DNA of 30,961 nt. It comes from a virus. The DNA is taken from positions 1 through 30,961 of IMG/VR virus record IMGVR_UViG_3300029787_000218. One strand, given 5' to 3'. Below are positions 1 through 571 of this stretch, piece after piece. Each line of letters opens with the position of its first letter. Position 1 is the stretch's first letter. Under the pieces are notes generated by a model. That model did no database searches and was not told where the DNA came from. It worked only from the letters and a program-made list of their open reading frames with translations. The translations under genes were made by a program, and so were the position numbers.

Positions 1-210
1 CATGTCCCGGAACTGACCCGCCACTTTCTTGCGGCCAGCGAACTTGTCAACATCAAGTCCAAGGCCCTTAGCTACGACTGCGAGATTTGCAATCGCCATA
101 ACCTTGTTTACCTCTGGGTTAAGCTCATCCCGGAGCCCGGAGATTTGAGCTTCCTTAGCGGAAACGATGGCGATATCGTCGGCGGCGGCTTGCATGAATA
201 CGTTGGTCAT
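1..210 (-). CDS. Hypothetical protein, C-terminus cut by window edge
   Basis: This is a leftward gene of which the first 70 codons are visible; it continues past base 1. The start is ATG at 210-208, preceded by a good ribosome site (GAGGT at about 222-218). The visible protein begins MTNVFMQAAADDIAIVSAKE and continues with a mixed helical-looking sequence rich in Ala, Val and Asp, ending in a basic stretch (GRKK) near residues 60-63. I see no signal peptide, membrane segment or catalytic motif and do not recognise the family. It is the only leftward gene at this end and is transcribed away from the small terminase. Its leader (211 to about 565) is long and strongly structured, which suggests post-transcriptional control. 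The function is unknown; that it is a gene is supported by start context and open frame. Confidence 0.6.
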   Translation of the reverse strand, partial: MTNVFMQAAADDIAIVSAKEAQISGLRDELNPEVNKVMAIANLAVVAKGLGLDVDKFAGRKKVAGQFRDM

Positions 211-231
211 TTTGTTACCTCATGTTGGTTT

Positions 232-302
232 GTGTTTCGACCCTGCTAGGTCCAAGGCCGCACCATGCGGCTCATCAGCGCCCCAGCTTCAGGGGCGGAC
301 AC
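232..302 (-). ncRNA. Hammerhead-ribozyme-like core (type III order), stem II irregular
   Basis: Read on the minus strand, the elements of a hammerhead occur in the order of an open-stem-III ribozyme. GUC (300-298) is followed directly by a perfect 6-bp hairpin with arms CGCCCC (297-292) and GGGGCG (284-279). Then come CTGATGA (278-272), a G271...C239 closing pair and GAAA (238-235). The bases after it, CAC (234-232), pair with GUG (302-300), so stem III has 3 bp plus the A-U core pair. The problem is stem II: 271-239 does not form one helix but two small hairpins (257-262/266-271 and 239-242/249-252). It may be a diverged or inactive hammerhead, or chance within a structured RNA. Confidence 0.35.
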
Positions 303-345
303 TTTGTTGCTAGGTGCGGTTTAGCCCGAAGGCCGCAAGCTCATC
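244..345 (-). repeat. Duplicated RNA module within the leader
   Basis: On the minus strand the words GATGAGC, TGCGGCCTT and CCTAGCA occur in that order twice: at 276-270, 262-254 and 250-244, and again at 345-339, 337-329 and 314-308. The spacing inside the two copies differs, with insertions in different places, so this is a diverged duplication rather than a recent copy. Each copy can form a hairpin through its TGCGG word. A duplicated structured module is what tandem aptamers or duplicated regulatory hairpins look like, but no ligand or class is recognised. Confidence 0.5.
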
Positions 346-374
346 CTAGGTGAGAGGCAAGAGCCCGAAGGTTG

Positions 375-542
375 TCATGCCCGGCTGTGGATGTTGCCGC
401 TCTTGCCCTTCCCTGAAACCCCCACCTTGCTGTGGGTATCCTGTGGCCTTTGCCTCAGGGTGGCTGAGAGCGGGACTGGTCCCGCCTCGTTTGGTGCGCT
501 TTGTTTGAGCCTAGCGTGGGCTGGTCTGTTGCGGTGCAACAT
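375..542 (-). CDS. Possible 55-aa upstream ORF in the leader
   Basis: A minus-strand ORF starts at ATG 542-540 and ends at TGA 377-375. Its start context GGTAACAAAATG (551-540) is identical over 12 bases to that of the gene starting at 210 (219-208). The protein (starts MLHRNRPAHA) is Arg-, Pro- and Gly-rich with no recognisable domain, and it overlaps most of the hairpins of the leader, so base composition may be set by RNA structure rather than coding. It could be a leader peptide or a relic of a duplicated start region. Low confidence as a gene. Confidence 0.2.
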   Translation of the reverse strand: MLHRNRPAHARLKQSAPNEAGPVPLSATLRQRPQDTHSKVGVSGKGKSGNIHSRA

Positions 543-571
543 TTTGTTACCGAACTCGTTGGCCGGTGACC

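Follow-up and report, generated by a model that had tools for sequence, protein, structure and literature searches.

Among small ribozymes, the hammerhead is the best studied. The CChMVd hammerhead, as described in JBC in 2001, is said to tolerate an additional nucleotide (A10) that separates A9 from G10.1. As of 2023, no known hammerhead alignment had more than 1-2 nt between CUGAnGA and stem II, and an enumeration of hammerhead permutations in the same study assumed that this connection is never interrupted (PMC10085705). Prophage hammerheads have been proposed to process long transcripts into mRNAs of gene length, with cleavage in vivo seen for one cluster, and 2-nt insertions near C3 slowed cleavage (PMC3088659). 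Here we describe an RNA encoded in a 30,961-base stretch of DNA (the window), a complete IMG/VR virus record that includes phage genes for packaging and the head. Comparison with relatives leads us to conclude that it is very probably a phage-borne type III hammerhead that has acquired a helix (P4 plus CUUG) between A9 and G10.1, forming a four-helix junction, and that self-cleaves after C298.

Architecture of the ribozyme in the window

Every element of a type III hammerhead was found at 302-232 on the minus strand. A prior reading from the letters alone (the sequence-only reading) had proposed GUC, a 6-bp stem I, CUGAUGA, GAAA and a short stem III in type III order, all of which are present. 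The features of the locus, in transcript order, are:

299..562, minus strand: noncoding leader, the predicted 5' cleavage product; similar sequence occurs in L002 and L139, and its ends covary
299..302, minus strand: 5' strand of stem III, GUGU, pairing with 235-232; U299 is position 16.1 (RF00008 alignment, A1)
298..298, minus strand: C17, with predicted cleavage 3' of this base (RF00008 alignment); UC is kept in all relatives
279..297, minus strand: stem I hairpin CGCCCC-UGAAGCU-GGGGCG, 6 bp (297-292 with 284-279); 6/6 pairs show compensatory change in A2, with 100% of cells paired
285..287, minus strand: GCU of loop I, predicted partner of AGC in loop II; paired in 18/19 cores
272..278, minus strand: catalytic core CUGAUGA (C3-A9), invariant in A1 and A2 and kept in the loci from the protein search
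257..271, minus strand: inserted accessory hairpin P4, GCCGCA-UGG-UGCGGC; 11 P4 versions in relatives, missing from matched relatives
253..256, minus strand: CUUG linker from P4 to stem II, seen also in relatives whose search did not demand CUUG
239..252, minus strand: stem II hairpin GACC-UAGCAG-GGUC, its loop containing AGC; 3/4 pairs show compensatory change, 100% paired
235..238, minus strand: catalytic core GAAA (G12-A15.1), invariant in A1 and A2
232..235, minus strand: 3' strand of stem III, ACAC, pairing with 302-299; A235 is common to GAAA and ACAC
218..221, minus strand: GAGG, probable ribosome-binding site from its sequence; its spacing to the start codon is kept in relatives
1..210, minus strand: downstream gene, leftward and cut off by the contig end; the 70 aa seen belong to a helical protein 64% identical to that of L002

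Both ends of the RNA lie in stem III, loops close stems I and II, and U16.1-H17 stands at the cleavage site. Stem II is closed beside GAAA by G252-C239 (G10.1-C11.1), a G-C pair invariant in 19 cores, and minimum-energy folding also gives the four helices as described. The one departure is that stem II does not adjoin A9: where at most 1-2 nt are expected (PMC10085705), 19 nt (P4 and CUUG, 271-253) intervene. The sequence-only reading had interpreted this as a stem II broken into two hairpins; its second hairpin is instead a complete stem II, and its first a separate inserted helix. Because its loop contacts loop I, as predicted from pairing, we regard the identification of the 3' hairpin as stem II, with or without the insert, as settled.

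Two other pairing schemes were considered and rejected. A single broken stem II, comprising P4 and the second hairpin and closed by the previously suggested G271-C239 pair, fails because that pair is lost in several relatives: the inserts of L033, L126 and L134 begin with C, which faces the C before GAAA and is unable to pair. A stem II formed by GCC/GGC pairing across the insert is feasible in some relatives and fails in the window, L054 and L062.

The Rfam model RF00008 aligned to 305-229 in the correct register with 20.4 bits (E = 0.0014 across the whole 31-kb record), short of the gathering score of 48.5, which the canonical relative L103 (39.8 bits) also misses; at the gathering threshold, Rfam gave no match in 17 loci and the window. 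A strict descriptor (stem I of at least 6 bp, stems II and III of at least 4 bp each, plus the core letters) matched the window once, compared with twice in 377 Mb of dinucleotide-shuffled sequence, or ~2e-4 expected for a sequence of the window's length. These two shuffled matches, together with conservation, rule out a chance match.

Conservation of the core and of the inserted helix

The first relative, L002, shares the gene order and has a compact hammerhead whose stem I sequence is wholly rewritten. Further members came from pattern scans of viral contigs, one pattern scan of bacterial genomes and descriptor scans, and eight pattern-matched loci without stem I were left out; neither DNA nor protein searches found a relative among the annotated phages of INPHARED. 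Many relatives come from patterns that contained core letters, and the invariance of CUGAUGA is thus partly built in. The fairest test is a search with the aligned downstream proteins alone, in which the ribozyme sequence plays no part. It returned ten loci, each with a hammerhead immediately upstream that retains GUC, CUGAUGA and GAAA, as the sequence-only reading predicted of homologous leaders.

Across 19 distinct cores with the insert excised, 99.7% of cells were paired and 13/17 pairs showed compensatory change, with a covariation score of 0.543 versus 0.136 for shuffled and at most 0.114 for slid partners. Stems I, II and III follow the hammerhead order, with covariation. Covariation had been anticipated for stems I and III; stem I bears this out fully, while stem III varies in few sequences, with compensated variation in 1/19 cores and also in L006 and L196. 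Stem III is 4 bp long, and its near-invariance arises partly since search patterns fixed its letters. The predicted tertiary pairing between loops I and II (GCU/AGC) co-changes to GCC/GGC in L146 and to ACU/AGU in L111, with one mismatch in L018. Loop I had its final two letters preset in one scan, and loop II its AGCA in another, which leaves as unbiased cases L146 and, for loop II only, L111.

The insertion site lies between A9 and stem II, and its content differs among members at this one site. It holds 0 nt in L021, L096, L100, L103 and L261; 1 nt in L002, L006, L061, L066 and L111; one hairpin and a short linker, usually CUUG (18-20 nt), in the window and 13 further distinct sequences; and two hairpins (26-37 nt) in L033, L126 and L134. 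The insert occurs in 17 distinct type III sequences, on one bacterial contig and otherwise on phage contigs; in every case it is a paired helix, and its sequence varies. Of 21 loci matched by an insert-blind pattern scan, 12 bear it. Across the 11 versions of the P4 helix, 49/49 positions form standard pairs, compared with a mean of 62% for arms exchanged among versions; the P4 helices of L137 and L139 are distinguished by one compensatory pair. The insert-bearing set by itself was 96.3% versus 82.1% paired, a figure that understates P4 pairing because MAFFT misplaced one gap in P4 in four sequences; the arms were recounted separately. In the two-hairpin forms a second helix occupies the CUUG position, and we infer that CUUG is a collapsed C(UU)G mini-hairpin.

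P4-CUUG was also found in type I hammerheads, both on phage contigs (L142, L143, L145, L148 and L154) and on Desulfosporosinus and Gracilibacter bacterial contigs (L183, L192, L202, L208, L210 and L211). A model built on this type I set (R2) matched 18/83 genomes of the Desulfosporosinus/Gracilibacter class. The best eight matches bear P4-CUUG, including L240 and L241, where no pattern demanded CUUG; the weaker matches, where readable, have 1 nt in its place. Pairing support is weaker for type I (97.7% paired, 7 distinct rows). Insert-bearing type I hammerheads lie upstream of a gene of 389-446 aa in Desulfosporosinus genomes and of an 80-aa gene in phage contigs. Several contigs carry more than one hammerhead. 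The minus strand of L146 has four (strand positions 2271, 4518, 5591 and 6228), one type III with the insert and three type I without it; L006 (2814 and 7871) and L066 (3165 and 3432, a spacing of 270 bases) are phage contigs that each have two hammerheads sharing a loop type.

Closely related loci differ in whether the insert is present. Two of them, L103 and L030, share 93.3% identity across 774 bases, and their stem I is the same. L103 lacks the insert, scores 39.8 bits with RF00008 and has a canonical 14-nt stem II; in its place L030, which scores 28.7 bits, has the insert P4-CUUG and a new stem II. The same contrast separates L096 from L029 (93.5% identical) and L061 from L018 (84.6%). 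On a downstream-protein tree of 20 sequences (a quick tree with some long branches), the insert state switches at least seven times. By comparison among relatives, these data demonstrate the fold, the core and the predicted contact of loop I with loop II; they also show that the insert is a genuine helix and that it interchanges with the canonical form at the same gene.

The sequence-only reading left a choice between a junction variant and a dead relic. The former is supported, with one helix more than normal between A9 and an intact stem II. A decayed hammerhead, in which the insertion abolished activity, would account for an insertion within the catalytic core, where none was seen in 2023 (PMC10085705). 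We consider it improbable: the core is intact, compensatory changes continue among insert-bearing sequences, P4 itself stays paired, and insert-bearing forms occur next to unrelated genes, in two circular permutations and in several bacterial lineages. A dead expanded form is likewise hard to square with its rapid exchange for the canonical one while the gene stays the same. Still less credible is the idea that P4 is the working stem II and that the second hairpin and CUUG are an insertion before G12. P4 does start right after A9, as is normal for stem II, but it is the second hairpin that has the AGC loop pairing with loop I, with which the contact covaries (L111 and L146), and that matches stem II of insert-less relatives, whereas P4 loops vary freely in sequence.

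A different kind of alternative keeps the ribozyme active and makes P4-CUUG a sensor of a protein or ligand, perhaps the downstream gene product, that switches cleavage. Such a natural allosteric ribozyme would fit an insert that is conserved both with a single downstream gene family and elsewhere, and the alternation of forms with and without it. We think it unlikely, as P4 varies widely in sequence and length, the helix is very short and has no conserved binding loop, and CUUG, the sole constant part, is missing from the two-hairpin forms. More plausible, although tentative, is that P4-CUUG (or P4-P5) is a widespread movable module of type I and III cores that alters rate, metal need or responsiveness, so that phages may swap constitutive and tuned self-cleaving leaders.

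Gene context and proposed consequences of cleavage

The downstream protein belongs to a very divergent, all-helical family (alignment A4) of ~215-230 aa with a K(K/R)xxEN motif, which the ribozyme repeatedly precedes; homologues are 15-90% identical to the family representative. It has no Pfam, PHROG or PDB-fold relative (model confidence moderate, pLDDT 76.9). The ribosome site lies about 15 nt past the ribozyme, and 21 nt separate the ribozyme end from the start codon, in agreement with the earlier placement of the hammerhead just 5' of a ribosome site.

The start of the leader was inferred from a TATAAT-like box near 575-570; no promoter consensus matched within the window. The leader (299-562) has a folding z-score of -1.9. 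A structured stretch of it, GGCAAAGGCCACnGGATACCC..., is common to the window (299-562, minus strand), L002 (4697-4920, plus strand) and L139, and its arms covary (CCCTGA/TCAGGG versus CCGGGT/ACCCGG). This stretch had no Rfam match, and scanning DNA for the leader's conserved portion returned just the two relatives already known. In at least eight loci an upstream cistron stops 24-27 nt ahead of the cleavage site, which fits the transcript processing proposed for prophage hammerheads (PMC3088659). In L021, L096, L103, L044, L052, L058 and L127, the stop codon of the upstream cistron is separated from the cleavage site by a GC hairpin, and both cleavage products would therefore end in a hairpin.

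We propose that the RNA self-cleaves after C298 during transcription. The downstream mRNA would then have a 5'-OH end and open with the stem I hairpin. What lies upstream, the leader here and a cistron in other phages, would be freed with a 2',3'-cyclic phosphate. Cleavage would free a leader of 110-270 nt in the window, L002, L018 and L061; in other phages it would split two cistrons, each new end then bearing a hairpin. The likely benefit would be defined mRNA ends and separate stability for the two parts. Cleavage could affect mRNA stability in either direction: in E. coli, mRNA is protected by a stem-loop at its 5' end, and in Bacillus RNase J1 degrades the glmS product that carries a 5'-OH (PMC3997798). 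P4 probably points out from the outer side of the core with catalysis still possible, much as with the lone additional nucleotide that other members have there. A large insertion in the core could nonetheless make cleavage slower.

Relation to known hammerheads

A conserved helix after A9 suggests that the hammerhead core accommodates a fourth arm, and the extra helix explains why such RNAs score low with standard models. Natural matched pairs with and without the arm allow its role to be tested, and the A9-stem II site suggests itself for adding sensor domains. The link between hammerheads and one phage gene family also makes their role in phages testable. No later description of an inserted helix after A9 was found in the literature searched, with many subscription papers, including Weinberg 2015, outside its scope.

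The window shares with type III hammerheads of RF00008 the CUGAUGA, GAAA and UC^ letters, the type III stem order and the loop I-loop II contact, and differs in the 15-nt hairpin and CUUG between A9 and stem II. Like the phage and prophage hammerheads of Perreault et al. 2011 (PMC3088659), it lies beside phage genes and has loop-loop pairing; the core insertions described in the main text of that paper are of 1-2 nt (after A6, after A13 and near C3), with no inserted helix after A9. The pseudoknot hammerhead (Weinberg et al. 2015; structure PMC11300833) also has an additional stem-loop, but there it is on helix I and pseudoknotted with loop II, whereas in the window the extra helix follows A9 and precedes a normal stem II. 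The type SGC hammerhead (HRIMA-1, PMC10085705) is another unusual natural architecture, differing in that SGC is a non-circular permutation. The insertion site is identical to that of the CChMVd hammerhead, where 1 nt stands in place of the 18-37 nt seen here. By sequence and structure we therefore classify the window RNA as a hammerhead and, because it departs from the class in one stated feature, a stem II next to A9, as a new structural variant of this known ribozyme class.
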